Virus record (IMG/VR): IMGVR_UViG_3300035698_009362
Coordinates: 1-24,251 of that record
Source of the DNA: a virus
DNA length: 24,251 bases
Strand: one strand, 5' to 3'
The position numbers and the translations under genes were made by a program. Each line of letters begins with the position of its first letter. Within the stretch, counting starts at the first letter, position 1. The notes under the pieces are model-generated. The model was given only the letters and a program-made list of their open reading frames with translations. It was not told the DNA's origin and ran no database searches. This document shows, piece by piece, positions 1,956 to 21,507 of this stretch.

Positions 1956-2130
1956 GTATGTGCCGATCGAGCGCACGGTGCCTGCCGATCTATTGTTGCC
2001 GGTGCCTATCTCTGATCGCAGGGCTGAAACCTATCGGGATCTGGCCAACCTGGCGACCGAGCATTTGAACAGTGCGCAACTCGCCAACGCCAAGATCACG
2101 GCGCTGGCAAAAATCGTTGGGCCGCAATGA
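1891..2130 (+). CDS. o-spanin (Rz1-like lipoprotein)
   Basis: This 79-residue protein starts with a short signal peptide (MKSLILTLPILLGAGMC) whose Cys at residue 17 could be lipidated. Next comes a Pro-rich stretch (VPIERTVPADLLLPVP) typical of o-spanins, and a helical tail. The first 65 bases overlap the i-spanin gene in a different frame. The lipobox is imperfect (Met precedes Cys), and Asp follows the Cys, a residue that in Enterobacteria tends to hold lipoproteins at the inner membrane. I chose ATG 1891; a TTG at 1876 is in frame but would spoil the signal peptide. The stop overlaps the terminase ATG. Confidence 0.75.
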   Translation: MKSLILTLPILLGAGMCDPKIEYVPIERTVPADLLLPVPISDRRAETYRDLANLATEHLNSAQLANAKITALAKIVGPQ

Positions 2131-4490
2131 CCATCAAGCCATCCAAGCTAGAGTTGAATCGCTACATCAAATTGCTGGAATATGAACTGGCATTGGTCGA
2201 AGCCGAGGATAACCTGATCCGGTTTGCGGAAGTGACCATGCCTGTTGAAAAGGCAATGGATGATGCGTCCAAGACCAAATACGACGCGGCAGATCATCAC
2301 CGCTTCATGGCGGGATTGATGGAAAAGGTTGAGCGCGGCGATACCCGCAAGGTGATCATCAACACAGCCCCACGCCACGGTAAGTCTGAGATATGCACGC
2401 GGCGCTTGGCGGCATGGTACACAGGCCGTCACCCAGAACGCGACATTGTGATTGCCACCTATGGCGCTGATTTTGCCAAGGACTTTGGGGGTGAAGTGCG
2501 TGAAATTATCCGATCCCAACGGTTCAAGCAGATTTTTCCCGACTATGAGATAGAAAAATATGCGACCGACCACATCACCAACAAAGATGGCGGAAACCTA
2601 TATTTCCTTGGCCGTCGGTCGCCTGTGACGGGGCGCGGCGGTGATCTGATCATCGTGGATGACCCCACCAAGGATGATAAGGAAGCGTCCAGTGGAGATT
2701 TCCGTGAAGATTGCTGGCAGTGGTTCACGCAAACACTTTTGACCCGGCGCCATACGGACAAATCTGCCGTGGTGATTACACAGTGCATGACTGGTGAAAC
2801 CCGTGTCTCATTGCCGGATTGTTCGACTGTCGCGCTGTCAGATATTCGCGCGGGCGATATTGTCGCCACCTATGACAACGGACGCCTTTCATCTGCCAAG
2901 GTCACAAAATGGTCTAATCAAGGCCCAGACAACATCTTTGCTGTAACCATGAAATCAGGACAAGTTGTCAGGGCAAATGCGAGGCACCCGTTTCTCGTAG
3001 AAAAAGATGGAACGCTAGAATGGCGGCGAATGGATACGCTAAAGCCGGGAGAAAATATCCTCCGGGCCATCATGGGAAATGGAAAGGCGTCACCTGCAAA
3101 TCAGATGGATGTGACCAACCAGCAAAATGTAAGGGGTTCTGCAACTCGCACTACAACAAGGATAGATGGGAGCGAGGCGTCAGGCCGCCATCTGTCAACC
3201 CTGTCAGCCGCCGCAGGGCGCATTTGCGGGCGCGATATGGCATTGAATTGGAGGACTACGACAGGATGCTTGTTGAGCAAGGTGGTGTCTGCGCTATCTG
3301 CAAAACCCTGCCCGACAACTTACCCGAACATTGGGAGCAGAAGCTATGCGTCGATCATTGCCATGGTCACGGTAAGGTCCGCGCCCTCCTCTGCAATGAC
3401 TGCAACTACATTGTCAGGAAGCGACACACGCCAGAACGGCTTGAGCGCGCCGCCGAATACCTCCGAGTTCACGCCTGACGAGATAGTCAGTATTGAACCG
3501 GACGGGGTTGAGGACGTGTTTGATGTGACTGTAGATCGAACGGAAAATTTCATCGCAAACGGTCTGGTCAGCCATAATACCCGCTGGCATGAAGATGATA
3601 TCGTTGGTCGTCTGACCGATGAATCAAACCCCGTGTTTTCAAAGAAGCTGCGTGAAGGGTTCGAGATATTCAATATTGCAGCCATCGCGGAAGAAGATGA
3701 TCCCATGGGACGCAAACCCGGTGAGCCGCTTTGGCCAGATCGCTTTGGTAGTGAATATCTCGAAGAAATGCAGGAAGCGAACCCCGCGGCCTTTGCCGCC
3801 CTCTACCAATCAAACCCTGTCCCTGAAAGCGGCGTGTTTTATCAAAGGGAAAACCTCTTTGAGTACGATGCGTCCGAATTACCGGATTGTTTGACGATGT
3901 ATGCGGCATCTGATCACGCAGTTGCGACCAAGAACATCAACGACAGAACCTGCCTGATACCCTACGGGGTATGTGAGCGGGGCGATGCTTGGATCATGCC
4001 TGACGTGATCTGGGACCGGATCAGATCAGATGATGCGGTTGAGGAAGTTCTGAACATTGTGACCCGCTACAAGCCGGTGTTCTGGTATGCGGAAAAAGGC
4101 CAGATCGCCAAATCCATTGGACCATTCATTGAAAAGCGCATGGCAGAAGAAAGCCTGTACGTCCCATTCATCATGCACCCGAACGTGGCTGACAAAGTGC
4201 AATTTGCCCATTCCGCCCGCGCGCGGTGTGCCCAAGGTCGTATCCGCTTTCCCCGCTGGGCACCGTGGTGGCAGAAGGCCAAGATCGAAATGCTCAAATT
4301 TCCCAATGCCCGGTTTGATGATTTTGTCGACACCGTATCAATCATCGGGATGCGGATGAATCAGCACCACGGTCCTGGCGCCCATCTGGTTAAAAAGGCG
4401 CCGACAGAAGGCACATTCGGGGCACTCAAAGAGCAATTCCGTGCGCAAGATCGCACAGCACGCGCCAAGGCCGCGCGGGCCGGGTGGTGA
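2127..4490 (+). CDS. terL: Terminase large subunit interrupted by an intein
   Basis: This is the ATP-driven DNA packaging motor and nuclease. The ATPase domain has Walker A APRHGKS (81-87), Walker B LIIVDD (174-179) and the coupling motif QTRWHEDD, which is split by an intein between Q219 and T485. The nuclease domain follows, with candidate acidic metal ligands at D596 (YAASDHA) and D731-D735 (FDDFVD). Of 787 codons, 265 belong to the intein, leaving a 522-residue mature terminase, normal for the family. The gene overlaps the o-spanin stop by ATGA. Packaging should depend on splicing, because the insertion separates the two motor motifs. No small terminase gene is recognised nearby. Confidence 0.93.
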   Translation: MTIKPSKLELNRYIKLLEYELALVEAEDNLIRFAEVTMPVEKAMDDASKTKYDAADHHRFMAGLMEKVERGDTRKVIINTAPRHGKSEICTRRLAAWYTGRHPERDIVIATYGADFAKDFGGEVREIIRSQRFKQIFPDYEIEKYATDHITNKDGGNLYFLGRRSPVTGRGGDLIIVDDPTKDDKEASSGDFREDCWQWFTQTLLTRRHTDKSAVVITQCMTGETRVSLPDCSTVALSDIRAGDIVATYDNGRLSSAKVTKWSNQGPDNIFAVTMKSGQVVRANARHPFLVEKDGTLEWRRMDTLKPGENILRAIMGNGKASPANQMDVTNQQNVRGSATRTTTRIDGSEASGRHLSTLSAAAGRICGRDMALNWRTTTGCLLSKVVSALSAKPCPTTYPNIGSRSYASIIAMVTVRSAPSSAMTATTLSGSDTRQNGLSAPPNTSEFTPDEIVSIEPDGVEDVFDVTVDRTENFIANGLVSHNTRWHEDDIVGRLTDESNPVFSKKLREGFEIFNIAAIAEEDDPMGRKPGEPLWPDRFGSEYLEEMQEANPAAFAALYQSNPVPESGVFYQRENLFEYDASELPDCLTMYAASDHAVATKNINDRTCLIPYGVCERGDAWIMPDVIWDRIRSDDAVEEVLNIVTRYKPVFWYAEKGQIAKSIGPFIEKRMAEESLYVPFIMHPNVADKVQFAHSARARCAQGRIRFPRWAPWWQKAKIEMLKFPNARFDDFVDTVSIIGMRMNQHHGPGAHLVKKAPTEGTFGALKEQFRAQDRTARAKAARAGW
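2784..3578 (+). mobile_element. Intein (terminase codons 220-484)
   Basis: This protein-splicing element lies in the terminase frame. It begins with Cys (CMTGETRVSL, block A) and has a block B-like GQVVRANARHPFLV with the conserved His. It ends with block F/G features (VFDVTVDRTENFIANG then LVSHN), giving the penultimate His and terminal Asn. The next extein residue is Thr485, a valid nucleophile. Excision restores VVITQ-TRWHEDD, a perfect terminase motif, which fixes both boundaries. The block B Thr is Asn here. The splicing parts are about codons 220-310 and 450-484, together the size of a mini-intein. The 140 codons between them make no sense as protein in this frame because they carry an endonuclease gene in the -1 frame. 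Confidence 0.93.
3020..3478 (+). CDS. HNH homing endonuclease (Endonuclease VII family) nested out of frame in the intein
   Basis: This 152-residue protein is read in the -1 frame relative to the terminase. It has a small zinc-knuckle region (C26, C31, C37, C41, H44), a linker RARYGIELEDYDRML, and then a complete Endonuclease VII core: GVCAICK (C91, C94), LCVDHCHGHGKVRALLC (D112, H113, H115) and CNDCN (C125, C128, N129). A free-standing nuclease of this type would cut an intein-less terminase gene and drive homing. The ATG at 3020 has only a weak upstream GGAA. The frame is already open from 2918, so a -1 frameshift product fused to the N-terminal splicing domain is also possible. The TGA falls just where the C-terminal splicing domain begins. 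Confidence 0.88.
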   Translation: MAANGYAKAGRKYPPGHHGKWKGVTCKSDGCDQPAKCKGFCNSHYNKDRWERGVRPPSVNPVSRRRAHLRARYGIELEDYDRMLVEQGGVCAICKTLPDNLPEHWEQKLCVDHCHGHGKVRALLCNDCNYIVRKRHTPERLERAAEYLRVHA

Positions 4491-7752: not shown

Positions 7753-8853
7753 ATGTCTATGGAAGGCTTCTCAGCGGCCCAGATTTCCCACGCGCAAGCA
7801 ACGGGACTGGACCATTATATCCGAGGCCCGTTGTTTAACAGCGGCATCCAGGAAAAACCCACCCTTGCCAAGTTTGAAAAGAAGGCAAAATCTTTTCCGG
7901 GCGGCAACGAAAACATCAGCGTAGGTGTTAAATTCACCACCGGGGCTGGCGGCACAAATGACAAGGTGGCCGGTTTCTCTCACACTGATGCGGTTGGGTT
8001 CTATAACCCAGGCAACGGGCGGCGCGCCAATTACGTTTGGCGTGAACACCACATCGGTATGACAATGAGTGAAACCGAGTTGAAACGTCACGGCATTCTG
8101 GTTACAGACAGCCCGCGCAAGATCCCCAAGTCCGGGTCTGACCGTGGCCTGCACATCCTTGCAAACGTGCTGGATGAAGCCAACGCCGACTTTGCCGAGC
8201 AATATGCCGATACCATGAACGATCTGGTCTGGGGCGACGGTTCTGCCGACTCCTCTGCCCTGCATGGACTGCGCGCCTTCATTCATGATGTTCCGACAAT
8301 CGGTACAGTGGGTGGCCTGTCGGCGGTGACATATCCACGGTGGCGCAACTTTGCCTATACTGCGGCATTTGCGGCTCACGCTTCATACAGCGCGACCCAC
8401 GGCGGCGGGGCGATTACTGCGGCGGGCACAAATGACGGCGTGTTGCTGACACAGTTGCAAAACCTGTGGCGTCAACTTCGTCGTTATGGTGGCAAGCCTG
8501 ATTGCTTTGCAGCGGGTTCCGACTTCATTGAAGCGATGGAAATGGAAATCCGGGCCAACGGTAACTATTCCGATACTGGCTTCACCAAGAAGCAAGATGG
8601 CGCGATGGGCGAAATGTACTTCAAGGGCACCATGGTCTACTACGACCCAACCCTTGATGATCTTGGCCGATCGAAGTTTGCCTATATCTGGGACAGTTCC
8701 GACATTGGCATCCACGCGCTGGAAGGCGATTGGAAACGTCGTCGCACGCCAGAACGCCCATATGACAAGTTCGTGTTTCATCAGTCCATGCTCTGCACGG
8801 GTCAGATGGTGGCACGTCGTCGCAACTCGTCGGCGGTTCTTGAAATCACGTAA
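7753..8853 (+). CDS. Major capsid protein
   Basis: This 366-residue protein would form the capsid shell. It follows the scaffold gene by 15 bases with an AAGGACG ribosome binding site, and a terminator-like hairpin lies just after it, as is common for highly expressed capsid genes. The N-terminal part has LDHYIRGPLFNSGIQEKPTL and GGNENISVGVKF. Later segments (GGKPDCFAAGSDFIEAME, MGEMYFKGTMVYYDPTLDD) resemble capsid proteins of the HK97-fold class that lack a delta-domain protease. The exact family (for instance N4-gp56-like) could not be settled by eye. Position, size and composition make the role fairly safe. Confidence 0.82.
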   Translation: MSMEGFSAAQISHAQATGLDHYIRGPLFNSGIQEKPTLAKFEKKAKSFPGGNENISVGVKFTTGAGGTNDKVAGFSHTDAVGFYNPGNGRRANYVWREHHIGMTMSETELKRHGILVTDSPRKIPKSGSDRGLHILANVLDEANADFAEQYADTMNDLVWGDGSADSSALHGLRAFIHDVPTIGTVGGLSAVTYPRWRNFAYTAAFAAHASYSATHGGGAITAAGTNDGVLLTQLQNLWRQLRRYGGKPDCFAAGSDFIEAMEMEIRANGNYSDTGFTKKQDGAMGEMYFKGTMVYYDPTLDDLGRSKFAYIWDSSDIGIHALEGDWKRRRTPERPYDKFVFHQSMLCTGQMVARRRNSSAVLEIT

Positions 8854-14685: not shown

Positions 14686-17600
14686 ATGGGCCTTTTTGAT
14701 GATCTGCCGAACGCTCAAAGATTTGACTTGTTCGAGGATCTTCCCGATATAAACCTCACGCCTGACTTACCGGTTGAACCCGTTGCGCCTGCATTGGCTG
14801 ACGTGATGGCGCCTCCCATGGTGCAGGATGTCACAACCCCTGCCTTGCCAGTTGAACCCGATCTTGCGTCGTTGTTCTCTGATCTGCCAGAATCACCCGT
14901 GAGGCCAAACGCCATGGGTGATGGTTCGATGGTATCGAATGACCCCAATTATGATTGGTCAACAGCGGGGGGTGATCTTGAGGCGGGCGTTCTAGGTCTG
15001 CAACAAGTGATACCGGGCCTGCGTGTTGCCAGTGCAGCCCAGAAAATCAGCACGGCGGCCGGGGCATCAACAGCCAATGCCCGGAATGCGGCTGGTTTAC
15101 GTGCGGAAGCCGATGCGCTTGAAGTGGAGTTGCCCAATCTGCCCGATGATGAAAGCCGCGCTAACCTGTTGGAAGAAATTGCCTTGATGCGCACACGGGC
15201 TGATGATTTTGAAATGACCGATGCGCTATCCGGGGATCAGCAGCAGGACGCACAGCGCGCGACATCCATTGCTGAAATGGCAGGGGGGGCGGCCCCTCTG
15301 GCCCAGCGCATCAGCGAATTGCAAGGTCAGGCCGCAGAAATCCCCATGAACCCAGCTGCGGCGCGCATAATGAACCCGCAAGGGGATGGGCTTGTCGCGC
15401 AGACGGGTGACGTGCTGTCAAACCTTGCAAGTGACCCTATGGGGGCAACACAGTCCATATTCCTACGTACAGCGCCACAGCTTGTCCCGGTGGCAGCAGC
15501 AACGCTTGCAGGGGCAGTCACCATGGGTCCGGGCGGTGCAGCGGTTCTAGGCGGCACCACAGGCGGCGGGCTGGAAATGGGTTCCGCATTTGGGGAACGC
15601 CTAATTAAGACACTCAACGAAAACAAGATTGACCCCAATGATCAACAAGCCGTCACTGAGTTCATCACGAGCAATCCAACGATCCTTGACGATGCGCTGG
15701 CCGACAGTACATCCCGCGCCCTGATCATATCGGGCATGGATGCCGTGTCTGGCGGCGTTATGGGGAGTATCGCGAAGAGAGTTGCCGGAGCGTCACGAGG
15801 TACGCGAGTGGCGGCGGCGGGCGGGGCTACGGGTGTCGAAACCGTTACAGAAGGTGCGGGCGAGGCGGCGGCGCAACAGGCAACAGAAGGCAAGATCAAC
15901 CCTGGCGAGGTCTTGGCTGAAATGATTGGTGCCGGTCCTGTAGGGGCTGTCACTGGCGGGGCCGCAATTGCGCGTGAGGCAGATCGCACACCGGGGCGCG
16001 TTATTGGACGTGAGTTTGGGAAGATGGTCGATGATGCTGAATTTCAGCCCGCACCCTTTGCACCGATCACAACACAAGATGCGCCAACGCCAATATCCCC
16101 AGAGGCACCTATCACAGCGCCGCGCGTCCCCCCTGTCGCAACCCAGCCACCAGAGGAAGAGCCCAATGCCCAAAATGTTGACCAGCAAGCAAGCCCTCAA
16201 ACTCCTGCGCCAGTGCGATCTGGTGACGAAGAAGGAATACAAGGCGGCGAAGCAGTTTTTCAAACGCGGCGGAACGGTGAGCCAGAACAGCAAAGTGGGC
16301 CAGACGTTGTTGAAAATCCATCTAGCCCAACACCCATCACTGAACGAAAGGATGATCTGAGTGGCGAGAAACCTGCACCGACCGAACCGAAGGATGCGCC
16401 AGTTGTGGCAAATCCAGAACGCCGCGCAACCGTTTATACACCTGAGAACGATCCTGTTGATGTGGAATATCAGGTAGTTGAGGCAGACAGTGTTTTAACA
16501 TCGGATCAACAGGGTTTTGACCAGAGCGCACAGCCGCGTGATCGGGCGGGCAACAAGAACAGTGAAATGCAGATTGAGGGGATTGCCAACAACCCAATTT
16601 TTGCACGTCTGAACCGTGCGCCTGAGACAGACCGTGGTGCGCCTATCGTGGGCGAGGATGGCTTGGTTGAAAGCGGTAATGGTCGCACAATGGGTTTGCG
16701 CCGCGCCTATGAACGCGGGACAGCCGCAGAGTACCGTTCCGCCCTTGAGGCAGAGTATCCAGAGGCAGCGGGCATGAAGGCCCCCATCGTGGTCGCCCGT
16801 CGCCTGTCTGACGTGAACCGCGAGGACTTTGCCTATCAGTCCAACAAGCCCGCCACACAGGCGTTGTCAGCGGTCGAGGAAGCCCGTGCAGAGGCGCGCA
16901 TGGTCGACAGCGATGTTCTTGGCCTCTATCGCGGCGGGCCCATCACAGCAGCCGGAAATCGGGACATGGTGCGTGCCTTCTTCAAGAAGCTGCCAGCCAA
17001 CGACCAGAACCGCATGATGAATGAGCAAGGTGGTTTGAGCATAGACGGTGTTCGTCGGGTACAGGCGGCGGTATTTTCGCGCGCCTATAATGATCCCGAT
17101 CTGTTGAATCGCATGGCGTCCAGCGTTGATGACGACATGAAGGGATTTACGACGGTCCTGACTGACCTTGCCCCGCGTGTTGCCAAGATGCGGGATGCCA
17201 TGGATCGCGGTGATGTTGCGGCAGAGGGTGACTTTACCCCGGCCCTGATCGAAGCAGTCAAGGTAATCTCTAATTTCCGGTCCCGCGGCGAAACACTAAG
17301 CCAATACAAAGAGCAAATTGATGCCTTTGCCACTCCTGTTTCACAGGAAGCGCAGATCGTCATGGATGCAATGTTCAACCCGGCAGGAACACGAATGGCG
17401 TCCAAGAAGGCCGTTTCTGATTTTATTGAATTTGCAATTGACGGTGCAGAGGCGCAAGATGCCAGCACGAAAACCCTGCCCGGTGTTGAACCGGTGCCCA
17501 TCAAGAAGCCTGCGGAGATTGTCACAGATGCCAAGCGAAAAGCCGAAACAGACACCGAGCAATCCGCTTTCTTCGATGGCGCGGGGCAATCTGGCCGAGG

Positions 17601-20600
17601 CGCTAACAAAGGCGGGCCTCAAAAACAACGAGCCCCAGATGGTTCGCGCGGGAAAGAAGATGCGGGAACTGTCGCAGACGCCACAGCAAGAATAGGTAAG
17701 CGCCCGCCTGGCAATCTATCACCAGCGTTTCTGGACTTTTCATACACCAACAGGCCATCTGTGTTCTCGCACGCCTTTCGGGCGGCCGGTGTCGATCCGA
17801 CTGACGGGCATTTGATGCCCATAGAAAAGCAGATCAGCATTGTCTCGAAGGCCGTGGAAGATACGTTTGGCATTAAGATCGAACTGCCCAAAATGACGGT
17901 TCAAAAAAAGAACCTCGCGGGCCGCAAGGTCAGTGTCGATCGTACATCCCTGAATGAACGCAAGGCACTGGACCAACTTCTAAACGCCTATCGCCAGCTG
18001 CAAATGCTATCGCATGTCATGGCAATGCCTGAAAAGGCTATCGGTCTGCCCATTGACGGCAAAACCCTGACCCTCTCCCTCGTATCCGGCAATAAGCTGA
18101 AAGGCGCGCTGGGGATGTTCTCATGGGGTGGCGACAAACGGACGATCAGCCTTGCCGACATGAGTAACAGCTTTGCCCATGAGTGGGGCCACGCTCTTGA
18201 TCACTATATGGCGGTACAGTCGGACAAACCCTTGCTCAAGGGCATGCTATCGCGCGCCATGGCAAAACAGGGGGTCATTCCCCCGATGTCACCCAAACGG
18301 GCTATGACGGACGCTTACGCCCATGTGATGTGGTCGATGTTCGGTGACAGCAGTGCATCCGGTCAGGTCATCATCGGCCTGCAAGTGGAAAGCGCACAAT
18401 TGGGTGCGGACGGAAAGCCAACCCCAAAAGCCAACCGGGCTCGTAAAATCCTGACAGACATTCGTGAAGGTCGGACGCCGCCAAAGGAATACTGGTCGAC
18501 GTATTTCAAAACATCCGCTGAGTTTGATCGGCAGGTTGGCGGTGATGGATATTTCACTGACCCGGCAGAAATGTTTGCCCGTGCATTTGAGGCGATGGTT
18601 GGTCATCAGGTATCCGCATTGTCGGATCAGCCACAGGCGTTCTTGTCCAAAGGTGAATGGGCATACAGCGACAAAAACGACATGCGCGCGGCCATGACGT
18701 TCCCAAAGGAAGTGGATGTTGCTCAGTTTTCCTTGGCGATAGCTGGTTTGCAGCACGCCATGGCACGCATCAATCTGTTCGGTCCTGACGCACCGGCACA
18801 AATCCCAGATAATCACGATATTCTGTCCACACGGGGATTGCTCAAGGCTCAGGAAAATTCACTTGGCGGTGCAATCTCTATGGGTGAGGCGCGCGAATGG
18901 GGCCGCACAATGGAACTGATGGGAAAAGCACCGGATGTTTTGAAGGAAAAGGGACGGTCCATCGCTGACGGTTTGTCGGCCTTCCACTCCCAAGCGTTGC
19001 GAACTTCCGCTGCAACAATGTTTGCTATTGCGGATCGTCAGCAAAACCCAAAGGCCAAGGCGGCGCTGACGAATATTGCAAGCGCAGTAGGCAAGCGCCC
19101 TGGCCGGGGGAAATTAGTCAAGAACCTGTGGGAAGAAAATGTTCGGCGTCAGGCCGCGTCCAATATCAACAAAATTGATGGTGCGGTTAAGAAGGCGTTG
19201 CAGAGCAAGGTTGGCGGAAAATTGCGAAACTTGTCCGAGGTAGAACTCCGTGATCTTCGCACACTCCTGACAGACGGCAAGGTTGATGACGCCATGCCTG
19301 CCATGAAGGCACTGGCGGCTGACCTGCGGGCAATCCTGAATGACATCTGGTACGATCTGGACAGCGCCGGGATTAAGGTGGGCTATGCGTCCAATTATCT
19401 GCCGCACATCTACGACCCAGATAGAGCATCCAAGAACCCGGACGAATTTCGAGCGCAGGCCAAGAAAGTCTACGATCTGATGTTTGAGCGTGAAATCGTG
19501 GACAACGATGATCCTGATACACAAATCTCTGATATGCACGCTATTGCGAACGGGCTGATCAAGACATCTGATCCCAACGAGGAAGGCGGCCGGGATGCAA
19601 TGTCACGCCTCACACCTGATGAGGTTAAAGCCGTCAACGGATACTTCAAGGCAGCGCGCGACTTGAAGAAAGCCAAGAAAGGGTTGGGTAAACTCACGCA
19701 GCCATCGGCCATTGCAAAACGCCAAGCCCAGATTGATCAGATCGAGGGGGAAATTGACGGTCTGCGCGATGCGGCAACGGATATTCTGCGCGACAAGTGG
19801 TCGTCGTGGTCATCCGAAAAGTGGATGATTGGCATTCGTACAGGTCAATTGGATGAGTTTGGGTCCATAGGTCCAACGTCAAACTTCCTAAAGGGGCGTG
19901 TTTTGCCAAACGAGGCAGGCCAGATCATGCGTAAATTCATGCACGAAAACCCCATTGAAATGATCAGCGACTATGCGTTTACCGCAGCAAAACGGGCAGA
20001 GTATGCGCGGGTGTTCGGGTCTGAAAATGAAAAGCTGAAAAATATGCTTGATGCGGCGGAAGGCGCCACCAAAGCTGATATAAACATGATGAAAGAGGCG
20101 GTTCGCGCGGCAACTGGCCGGATCAATGGCGCCGGTTCCGGTTTCCAGGCGTTCAAAACAACCACGTTTTCAGCGGGCAATATGGCACTTTTGACCCTTG
20201 CAAGTTTCTCAAGCCTTGCGGAACCCATCACGGCGGGCCTTCGATCTGGTCAGGTACGCGATAGTTTCGGCGCAATGGCACAGTTTTTCAGCGGTATGGT
20301 ACGCAAGGGCCAGCGCAAGGAACTGTTTGAGATTGCGCGCACCATTGGTCTGATCATGCCATATGCCACTGATACGCTCATGGAAAACCGTCTGGGCGCG
20401 GACGTGATGCAGGGCAAGCCGTGGTTGAGCGGCGTTGTCAGCCGGTCATTCATTGTAAACGGATTGACCCCCCTGACGCACTATCAGCGGGCCATGATGC
20501 TGCCCGTCGCCAGCCGGGTTCTATATCGGCATTTGCAGGCGGTAGCGACGAACAAGACGCGGATTCGGGATAAAGTGTTTGGCGACAAAAACGGGTTTTC

Positions 20601-21507
20601 CAACGGTGAGTTGAACGAACTTGGCGTTGCGGAAGGGGATCGCGCGTCACTTCTTGAGTGGATGGACAGTGTGGACGGTATGCCATCGCCGGATGATTTG
20701 TACGGACCTGATGGCCGGATGCACAAGGCGGCGGAATTGTGGTCGGCTGCAACCTATCGGTTTTCGACAGAAACCATTCAAGACCCTCTCAAGACCGATC
20801 GAACCATTCTCGCCAACAACCCTGATCATGCAGCTATGTACGGGATCATGTCATTCATCGACGCCTTTACCCGTAACGTGATCTGGCGGACCTTGGAGCG
20901 CGGCATCAAGGATGGTGATGGTCGGGCCGCCAAGGGTGGTAAGATGGCCTATAACGCGCTCACGTCTTTGCCTATGTGGGGTACGTTGATCACCGGTCAA
21001 ATCTTGGCGGGAGTTCTGCGGGATGCGATGATGAACGGTGATGATTGGGAAAAGCATGAAGAAAAAGGCGATCTTGAGGAATGGCTGATTAAGCGCGGAT
21101 TCGAGCGTAGCGGCATCACTGGGCGCCTAAGCCCAATCATTAACATGTTCACGGGGATCAGATACGACACTGACCCCACAAGCTTGTTTGCAGGGCCCTA
21201 TGCAGCGTTTTTCCTCAACAACATGGCGAAGGTGGTTAAGGCGGGGTCTGGAAACCGGAACTCTCCAAACACCAATACATCCGAATATAATGCCGCATCG
21301 GCCATTTATCAGACGATGGTAAAACCCGTTGGAGTCGGTTTGATTTCGGGATTGATGCCGCTTGGACCAATGAGCGTCAATGCCTCAAGGGCAGGCGTAG
21401 GCTTTCTTTCGGCGCGACCCACAGAGCGCAAATTCTCTGAGGCACTTGTGGGCGAGAAGGGGGCAAAGCATGTTGGATCGCCGCCCTGGTGGGAAATGGG
21501 GGACTGA
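14686..21507 (+). CDS. Giant polyvalent virion protein with DdrB/ParB-like and HEWGH zincin-like (LPD1-type) domains
   Basis: This 2273-residue protein has LFxDLP motifs (about 3, 15 and 65) and two Ala/Gly-rich hydrophobic segments (about 256-300 and 345-430), perhaps membrane-active. A Pro/Gln-rich linker (440-590) leads to a DdrB-like ParB-superfamily domain (about 594-740, with ESGNGRTMGLRR). Another linker (945-1005) precedes a zincin-like domain with H1165-E1166-W-G-H1169 and E1295 in PAEMFARAFE, the pattern I recall for LPD1. A long helical C-terminus (1400-2273) includes NYLPHIYD near 1573 and resembles LPD38-type ends. It takes the position of T7 gp16 but lacks a visible transglycosylase motif. 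Known polyvalent proteins are ejected with DNA and counter host defences; that role is inferred. Confidence 0.85.
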   Translation: MGLFDDLPNAQRFDLFEDLPDINLTPDLPVEPVAPALADVMAPPMVQDVTTPALPVEPDLASLFSDLPESPVRPNAMGDGSMVSNDPNYDWSTAGGDLEAGVLGLQQVIPGLRVASAAQKISTAAGASTANARNAAGLRAEADALEVELPNLPDDESRANLLEEIALMRTRADDFEMTDALSGDQQQDAQRATSIAEMAGGAAPLAQRISELQGQAAEIPMNPAAARIMNPQGDGLVAQTGDVLSNLASDPMGATQSIFLRTAPQLVPVAAATLAGAVTMGPGGAAVLGGTTGGGLEMGSAFGERLIKTLNENKIDPNDQQAVTEFITSNPTILDDALADSTSRALIISGMDAVSGGVMGSIAKRVAGASRGTRVAAAGGATGVETVTEGAGEAAAQQATEGKINPGEVLAEMIGAGPVGAVTGGAAIAREADRTPGRVIGREFGKMVDDAEFQPAPFAPITTQDAPTPISPEAPITAPRVPPVATQPPEEEPNAQNVDQQASPQTPAPVRSGDEEGIQGGEAVFQTRRNGEPEQQSGPDVVENPSSPTPITERKDDLSGEKPAPTEPKDAPVVANPERRATVYTPENDPVDVEYQVVEADSVLTSDQQGFDQSAQPRDRAGNKNSEMQIEGIANNPIFARLNRAPETDRGAPIVGEDGLVESGNGRTMGLRRAYERGTAAEYRSALEAEYPEAAGMKAPIVVARRLSDVNREDFAYQSNKPATQALSAVEEARAEARMVDSDVLGLYRGGPITAAGNRDMVRAFFKKLPANDQNRMMNEQGGLSIDGVRRVQAAVFSRAYNDPDLLNRMASSVDDDMKGFTTVLTDLAPRVAKMRDAMDRGDVAAEGDFTPALIEAVKVISNFRSRGETLSQYKEQIDAFATPVSQEAQIVMDAMFNPAGTRMASKKAVSDFIEFAIDGAEAQDASTKTLPGVEPVPIKKPAEIVTDAKRKAETDTEQSAFFDGAGQSGRGANKGGPQKQRAPDGSRGKEDAGTVADATARIGKRPPGNLSPAFLDFSYTNRPSVFSHAFRAAGVDPTDGHLMPIEKQISIVSKAVEDTFGIKIELPKMTVQKKNLAGRKVSVDRTSLNERKALDQLLNAYRQLQMLSHVMAMPEKAIGLPIDGKTLTLSLVSGNKLKGALGMFSWGGDKRTISLADMSNSFAHEWGHALDHYMAVQSDKPLLKGMLSRAMAKQGVIPPMSPKRAMTDAYAHVMWSMFGDSSASGQVIIGLQVESAQLGADGKPTPKANRARKILTDIREGRTPPKEYWSTYFKTSAEFDRQVGGDGYFTDPAEMFARAFEAMVGHQVSALSDQPQAFLSKGEWAYSDKNDMRAAMTFPKEVDVAQFSLAIAGLQHAMARINLFGPDAPAQIPDNHDILSTRGLLKAQENSLGGAISMGEAREWGRTMELMGKAPDVLKEKGRSIADGLSAFHSQALRTSAATMFAIADRQQNPKAKAALTNIASAVGKRPGRGKLVKNLWEENVRRQAASNINKIDGAVKKALQSKVGGKLRNLSEVELRDLRTLLTDGKVDDAMPAMKALAADLRAILNDIWYDLDSAGIKVGYASNYLPHIYDPDRASKNPDEFRAQAKKVYDLMFEREIVDNDDPDTQISDMHAIANGLIKTSDPNEEGGRDAMSRLTPDEVKAVNGYFKAARDLKKAKKGLGKLTQPSAIAKRQAQIDQIEGEIDGLRDAATDILRDKWSSWSSEKWMIGIRTGQLDEFGSIGPTSNFLKGRVLPNEAGQIMRKFMHENPIEMISDYAFTAAKRAEYARVFGSENEKLKNMLDAAEGATKADINMMKEAVRAATGRINGAGSGFQAFKTTTFSAGNMALLTLASFSSLAEPITAGLRSGQVRDSFGAMAQFFSGMVRKGQRKELFEIARTIGLIMPYATDTLMENRLGADVMQGKPWLSGVVSRSFIVNGLTPLTHYQRAMMLPVASRVLYRHLQAVATNKTRIRDKVFGDKNGFSNGELNELGVAEGDRASLLEWMDSVDGMPSPDDLYGPDGRMHKAAELWSAATYRFSTETIQDPLKTDRTILANNPDHAAMYGIMSFIDAFTRNVIWRTLERGIKDGDGRAAKGGKMAYNALTSLPMWGTLITGQILAGVLRDAMMNGDDWEKHEEKGDLEEWLIKRGFERSGITGRLSPIINMFTGIRYDTDPTSLFAGPYAAFFLNNMAKVVKAGSGNRNSPNTNTSEYNAASAIYQTMVKPVGVGLISGLMPLGPMSVNASRAGVGFLSARPTERKFSEALVGEKGAKHVGSPPWWEMGD
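16166..16360 (+). CDS. Candidate nested gene in the giant ORF (+1 frame), 64-residue basic protein
   Basis: Within linker codons 494-558 of the giant protein, the +1 frame encodes a Lys-rich helical protein (starts MPKMLTSKQALKLLRQCDLV, then TKKEYKAAKQFFKRGG). AGGA at 16154-16157 sits 8 bases before the ATG. Counted by hand, 48 of 64 third positions are G/C in this frame, against 21 of 64 in the giant's own frame, where the text is Pro/Gln/Glu-rich linker. This is how a real overprinted gene would look. No family is recognised. An alternative is a pair of compensating frameshifts in the giant, leaving the original frame exposed. Confidence 0.5.
   Translation: MPKMLTSKQALKLLRQCDLVTKKEYKAAKQFFKRGGTVSQNSKVGQTLLKIHLAQHPSLNERMI
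17528..17695 (+). CDS. Candidate nested gene in the giant ORF (+1 frame), 55-residue basic protein
   Basis: In the second linker of the giant protein (codons 948-1003, just before the zincin-like part), the +1 frame encodes a compact charged protein (MPSEKPKQTPSNPLSSMARG, then NLAEALTKAGLKNNEPQMV). GGAG at 17514-17517 lies 10 bases before the ATG. Third-position G/C is 38 of 55 in this frame and 25 of 55 in the giant's frame, where residues such as GQSGRGANKGGPQK look like linker. It is in the same relative frame as the other nested candidate. An internal ATG at 17576 could give a shorter form. Function unknown. Confidence 0.4.
   Translation: MPSEKPKQTPSNPLSSMARGNLAEALTKAGLKNNEPQMVRAGKKMRELSQTPQQE

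Follow-up and report, generated by a model that had tools for sequence, protein, structure and literature searches.

A terminase intein with a second gene inside it

In the window, i. e. the whole analysed stretch of 24,251 nucleotides of viral DNA, the terminase gene terL is a single open frame of 787 codons on the plus strand (2127-4490), and an intein of 265 codons sits inside it (2784-3578, plus strand). The intein begins with the codon for Cys220 at 2784 and occupies the C-motif of TerL (VVITQ|C...HN|TRWHEDD), with the junctions VVITQ|CMTG and VSHN|TRWHEDD; its assignment is based on domain profiles, on these junctions and on relatives in which the site is empty. The N-extein (2127-2783, plus strand) contains the ATPase part (Terminase_6N, PF03237; phrog_4758), and the C-extein (3579-4490, plus strand), which starts with the +1 Thr, contains the nuclease domain of the terminase (phrog_38, TIGR01630). 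Both terminase halves are recognised by Pfam, NCBIfam and PHROGs, and both intein halves by Pfam and NCBIfam: the matches are to the Pfam profile Intein_splicing (E=7e-16) and to the TIGR profiles intein_Cterm (3e-7) and intein_Nterm (2.6e-5). The 787 codons of terL, Cys220, the coordinates of the intein and the extein junction, as given in a preliminary description of this DNA, proved correct.

The AlphaFold model of the intein in the TerL frame shows a confident HINT fold that is interrupted by a disordered stretch of 121 residues. The N-terminal splicing domain (residues 1-99; 2784-3080, plus strand) carries blocks A and B with C1 and RANARH68, the C-terminal splicing domain (residues 221-265; 3444-3578, plus strand) carries blocks F and G (ENFIANGLVSHN; TIGR01443), and the linker between them comprises residues 100-220 (3081-3443, plus strand). 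The pLDDT reaches 94-98 for residues 1-90, 83 for residues 91-100 and about 96 for residues 231-265, and it is below 50 in the linker. As judged by Foldseek, the best PDB matches of the model are the DnaB, RecA and GyrA inteins (lowest E value 4e-9). The residues of a class-1 intein are present (C1, RANARH68 and VSHN265|T), and C1, H68 and N265 are invariant among the aligned inteins (alignment A6). These data support the view that the insert is a class-1-type intein with a mini-intein-like splicing domain, as does the comparison with about 170 homologs. The linker is the TerL-frame reading of nuclease DNA: it is stop-free and rich in Ser, Thr and Ala, as had been described before, but the disordered stretch amounts to about 121 residues rather than to 140 codons.

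The nuclease is encoded in the -1 frame (offset 2) by a complete gene for an HNH protein of the Endonuclease VII type with 152 amino acids (3020-3478, plus strand; stop codon TGA at 3476-3478). Its assignment is based on the Pfam domain Endonuclease_7 (PF02945, E=2e-17), on the match to T4 Endonuclease VII, on the AlphaFold model (pLDDT 85.7) and on purifying selection (see below), and thus confirms the earlier claim of a nested nuclease gene. The active-site region (3290-3406, plus strand) encodes the zinc ligands Cys91, Cys94, Cys125 and Cys128 and the catalytic residues D112-H113...N129, all of them invariant in an alignment of 48 nucleases; the CxxC...DH...CxxCN motif is intact in 169 of 171 sequences. 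Among the relatives of solved structure, T4 Endonuclease VII comes closest by profile. The Foldseek match of the model to this protein is modest (E=0.016, TM 0.30), and we therefore prefer the sequence (profile) evidence. The two enzymes share the zinc CxxC...CxxC motif and the D-H...N active site, whereas the nuclease described here has an extra N-terminal Cys/His zinc motif and is nested in an intein. It had been proposed that the nuclease ends where the C-terminal splicing domain starts: the gene is indeed nested, but it overlaps the N-terminal domain by about 60 nt and the beginning of the C-terminal domain by about 30 nt.

The two-frame arrangement is conserved in a widespread family

The preliminary description had suggested a comparison of the frame status of homologous inteins. 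Four scans of IMG/VR and one scan of GTDB yielded 176 distinct loci with an N-terminal splicing domain, the HNH nuclease and a C-terminal splicing domain. A nuclease in the -1 frame together with a stop-free TerL frame was found in 174 of these loci, and both frames are free of stops in 172. The HNH is at offset 2 in 175 loci, the sole exception being L154 due to one 1-nt indel. Similarly, the TerL frame is open in 174 loci, i. e. the host gene is not broken into two ORFs; in L361, an ambiguous base (N) breaks the frame. An in-frame nuclease was not present in any of the 176 loci of the IMG/VR and GTDB census. The nested out-of-frame nuclease is thus the conserved architecture of a widespread family, and the copy in the window is not unique. 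Wherever the flanks were checked, the insertion site is the TerL C-motif. Most loci belong to environmental viruses and prophage-like contigs from phyla other than those of the actinobacteriophage hosts. The titles of the host contigs include Mycolicibacterium, Nonomuraea, Anaerolineae, Gallionellaceae, Geobacteraceae, Sulfuritalea and Endozoicomonas, and most of them are metagenome bins. Most of the GTDB matches that lack the HNH (L169-L194) represent other inteins, located in genes other than terL, and this set could serve only as weak controls. When the nuclease was compared with the GenBank phages by tblastn, it matched terminase genes in phages of Gordonia and Mycobacterium, at the -1 offset in every case, and among the matches listed none of these terminases has a nuclease annotated at the nested position.

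Selection switches frames at the borders of the nuclease

For the window alone, the absence of stop codons from the TerL frame across the nuclease is unremarkable (P=0.32, synonymous permutation), and the case therefore rests on the homologs. In 92 of 92 loci, the TerL frame over the nuclease is open with 0 stops, as compared to about 25 open frames expected from synonymous permutation, and the remaining sense frame over the same DNA contains 750 stops in these loci. If the loci are clustered at less than 70% nuclease identity, 91 of 91 clusters have an open TerL frame (joint log10 P about -82). Moreover, the equivalent frame is open in only 4 of 71 free-standing EndoVII genes related to the nuclease. 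A frame that is open by chance can thus be ruled out for the family, and the idea that selection keeps the second frame free of stops is borne out.

The divergence at the three codon positions of TerL tells which frame is selected for its amino acids. It is 0.175/0.140/0.449 (positions 1/2/3) in the N-terminal splicing domain and 0.153/0.063/0.486 in the C-terminal one, with the highest value at position 3, and 0.144/0.461/0.212 in the nuclease core, with the highest value at position 2. Since the second codon position of TerL coincides with the third one of the nuclease, the amino-acid-selected frame switches at the borders of the nuclease. The mean identity across the same DNA is 53% in the HNH frame versus 28% in the TerL frame. 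Separate estimates for the two frames, which the preliminary description had also suggested, gave a dNN/dSN of 0.22 for the nuclease and a dNN/dNS of 0.70 for the TerL frame; like the codon-position counts, these values are derived from overlapping locus pairs and are descriptive rather than independent tests. The weak amino acid constraint that the value of 0.70 might indicate for the linker may reflect transition bias, and we do not claim it. The element provides a clear example from nature of coding in two frames, with one frame selected for its sequence and the other almost only for the absence of stops.

Intein and nuclease travel together

The terminases most closely related to that of the window have an empty site, TQ|TRWHEDD (L195 with 77% TerL identity, L196-L199 with about 60%). 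In the pair L018/L049, the HNH is 89% and the splicing domains are 86% identical, with only 35-43% identity in TerL, and in the pair L003/L005 TerL is about 90% and the HNH 49% identical. These discordant identities indicate that intein and nuclease move as a unit between unrelated terminases, independently of the host gene. The nuclease can also be lost: L067 (1451-2254) and L167 (2559-3374) carry a nonsense codon in the nuclease only, and L266 (2501-3103), which is counted among the 172 loci, has a frame-preserving internal deletion in the nuclease; the TerL frame is intact in all of them. These copies correspond to the endonuclease-loss phase of the intein cycle. Thus, nuclease activity is not universal in the family, and the nuclease is free to mutate or to die with the host frame left untouched.

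Enzymes of the EndoVII family can also be Holliday-junction resolvases, and for this reason the homing specificity of the nested nuclease is something that we infer. It is conceivable that the nuclease is a resident resolvase or a packaging-associated HNH gene that overlaps the intein and plays no role in homing: EndoVII domains do occur in resolvases of phages, and terminases can be assisted by HNH proteins (PMC11855218). We regard this as very improbable, since the closest terminases with an empty site do not have the nuclease, which follows the intein into divergent terminases and decays while the intein stays.

Start signals of the nuclease are embedded in intein codons

The ATG of the nuclease in the window (3020-3022, plus strand) is formed by the third base of a GAA codon (Glu) and the TG of an intein Trp codon (3021-3023). 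Such an NTG start, cut from a conserved intein Trp codon (nTG|G; HPFLV..DG..W), is present in 174 of 174 loci (148 ATG, 25 GTG and 1 TTG), and in the loci in which a fourfold-degenerate codon precedes this Trp, its third base is A or G in 20 of 20 cases (P=5e-7). A Shine-Dalgarno-like GGAG is usually located 8-11 nt upstream of the NTG; it is strong in 135 of 174 loci, weak in 22 and lacking in 17. In the window, this signal is a weak GGA at -11 to -9 (3009-3011, plus strand), within the codons for the 'DG' of the intein. The third base of the Gly codon at this site is distributed as A98 G39 T18 C7, versus T385 C321 A201 G179 for Gly codons elsewhere, and the mean anti-SD pairing energy is -6.0 versus a background of -2.3. 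Initiation signals are thus overprinted on codons of a catalytic domain. With its own NTG in all loci and an SD-like signal in most of them, the expression of the nuclease is probably uncoupled from the splicing frame, as had been proposed.

A programmed -1 frameshift of terL might produce the nuclease as a fusion to the N-terminal splicing domain, and the location of the nuclease in the -1 frame, which in the window is open for 102 nt upstream of the ATG, would fit this idea. However, in at least 12 loci the codon directly before the NTG is a stop, in 99 of 174 a stop lies within 10 codons, and slippery heptamers are found in only 8 of 174 loci; it is the NTG and the SD that are conserved instead. 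With stops so often directly upstream of the start, frameshifting is not the route; we consider it very improbable and have rejected it, since the 174 loci share neither a conserved slippery site nor an open upstream frame.

One mRNA that is probably read in two ways

The anatomy of the element, the conservation of both frames, the embedded start signals and the co-mobility of intein and nuclease are direct observations. Very probably, they reflect a mobile TerL6-f/C-motif intein that carries its homing endonuclease as a gene of its own, nested in the -1 frame, with the terL mRNA being read in two ways. Ribosomes coming from the terL start would synthesize a precursor of 787 amino acids, in which the nuclease DNA is read as about 121 disordered residues that link the HINT halves. 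This precursor is predicted to splice to a terminase of 522 amino acids, and the linker would be lost with the intein; splicing has been demonstrated for the homologous TerL6-f intein of phage Chandler (PMC5050341). Ribosomes that initiate at the internal SD and NTG within the codons of the N-terminal splicing domain would produce the HNH/EndoVII nuclease as a free protein of about 17 kDa. The nuclease presumably cuts intein-less terL at the C-motif, and repair would then copy in the intein together with the nuclease. The two readings of the mRNA would explain why selection acts on the amino acids of the nuclease in one frame and on essentially only the absence of stops in the other. The weak SD of the window (GGA only) and the 17 of 174 loci that lack a clear SD speak against this model, as do the decayed nucleases of a few loci and the fact that EndoVII-family enzymes can be resolvases. 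As to the origin of the arrangement, a nuclease has presumably invaded a mini-intein; in all members, the nuclease starts at the same position and in the same frame, which would suggest a single ancestral out-of-frame invasion.

Two further explanations have practically no chance. The two frames might be an artefact of indels, sequencing errors or the decay of an originally in-frame bifunctional intein, as the broken frames of L154 and L361 (2 of 176 loci) could suggest, yet 172 distinct loci from isolates and metagenomes have the same -1 frame with both frames open, and their codon-position signatures and start sites match. Since the -1 frame is common to the homologs and none of those found has the nuclease in frame, both the scenario of two indels and that of a decayed window copy among in-frame relatives, which the preliminary description had considered, are excluded; the occurrence of the same arrangement in about 170 related viruses identifies it as a real dual-coded element, and sequencing error and decay are thus refuted by the census. 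The removal of the insert as an RNA intron, for which the EndoVII-like nuclease inside the two-piece joined terL of L409 (see below) might be cited, is equally out of the question: the insert has the complete set of intein splicing blocks, a HINT fold and a frame without stops, and protein splicing is known from the Chandler homolog (PMC5050341).

Relation to known inteins and hidden nucleases

Large inteins carry an in-frame LAGLIDADG or HNH endonuclease domain, and the usual view of an intein with an endonuclease is that of a single polypeptide with two functions. In contrast, the nuclease described here is out of frame, has its own start and stop, and is not part of the spliced intein. Homing and splicing share DNA and not protein, so that the expression of each can be tuned separately. 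In fractured genes, split inteins flank a free-standing endonuclease. They resemble the element in the window in the expression of the endonuclease apart from the splicing parts, which is presumed here, but the window intein is contiguous and the host frame unbroken, and splicing would thus occur in cis.

The closest known counterpart is the TerL6-f intein of mycobacteriophage Chandler (gp6), which Kelley et al. (2016) assayed and found to splice in a reporter; in the sections of this paper that bear on the point, an identifiable endonuclease is tied only to the TerL1-b and -c inteins, and a nested frame of TerL6-f is not mentioned (PMC5050341). Our analysis revealed that Chandler TerL6-f carries the same out-of-frame EndoVII HNH. 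It thus shares with the window the C-motif site, homologous splicing blocks and the nested -1 nuclease, whereas the window is derived from a podovirus-type virus with an unrelated TerL and not from an actinophage. As the ShiLan domain, Arsenault et al. (2025) have described an out-of-frame ("hidden") HNH in a non-splicing insert of phage methylases, again with its own start and stop and with the host frame left open; no splicing element could be detected in this insert, which is believed to be retained in the protein (PMC11855218). Unlike that of the ShiLan domain, the nuclease of the window lies in a functional-looking intein with splicing blocks and HINT fold, and SD and NTG are conserved in its family. 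With respect to overlapping frames, the passage concerned of the same paper refers to a 2025 preprint on the 'non-canonical architecture' of actinophage inteins (PMC11855218).

The nuclease is a gene so far unannotated within the terL of dozens of phages in GenBank and of well over 100 environmental viruses. For actinophages, Gosselin et al. (bioRxiv 2025, 'Actinobacteriophage Inteins ... Non-Canonical Architecture', 10.1101/2025.01.02.630785) probably deal with this or a similar arrangement, to judge from their title and from the context in which they are cited (PMC11855218). The preprint may thus describe the actinophage members of the family, and priority is uncertain; the title restricts it to actinobacteriophages, whereas the majority of our loci come from environmental viruses and from prophage-like contigs of other phyla. 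We see even chances that the family is a global intein lineage, distributed over viruses and prophage-like contigs of several bacterial phyla, whose homing endonuclease would never be part of the spliced polypeptide and would always be made from an internal ribosome-binding site and start within splicing-domain codons, with splicing and homing translated separately from overlapping frames. Such a general and obligatory architecture with embedded initiation signals is not known to have been described. Internal initiation within an actively translated gene can be tested directly in Chandler on M. smegmatis.

Other insertions in terL and other genes of the window

In locus L221 (3861-4862), the C-motif site is empty and an intein of 334 codons is located elsewhere in terL, in the Walker B region (TGRGAD|C...HN|CLLIDDP); no EndoVII HNH was detected in this intein. 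In the Vequintavirus locus L409 (MZ501073.1, 683-3113), the annotation joins terL from two pieces and places a putative EndoVII-type homing endonuclease inside, so a nuclease of this type has reached terL via another splicing element.

Directly upstream of terL in the window, two overlapping frames on the plus strand (1614-1955 and 1876-2130) probably encode an Rz/Rz1 spanin pair; the second one matches the Rz1-like profile LysC (PF23793, E=4e-7), and the Rz-like spanin family phrog_456 was also matched in the pair. The frame at 14686-21507 (plus strand) encodes a large polyvalent protein of 2273 amino acids, which contains a ddrB-ParB domain (E=2e-29) and an LPD1 domain (E=9e-7). The gene at 7753-8853 encodes a podovirus-type major capsid protein (NF033394), which among the GenBank phages matches only those of Microcystis phage Mae-Yong1326-1 (46%) and Rhizobium phage RHph_N65 (39%); the same two phages are also the top matches for TerL.
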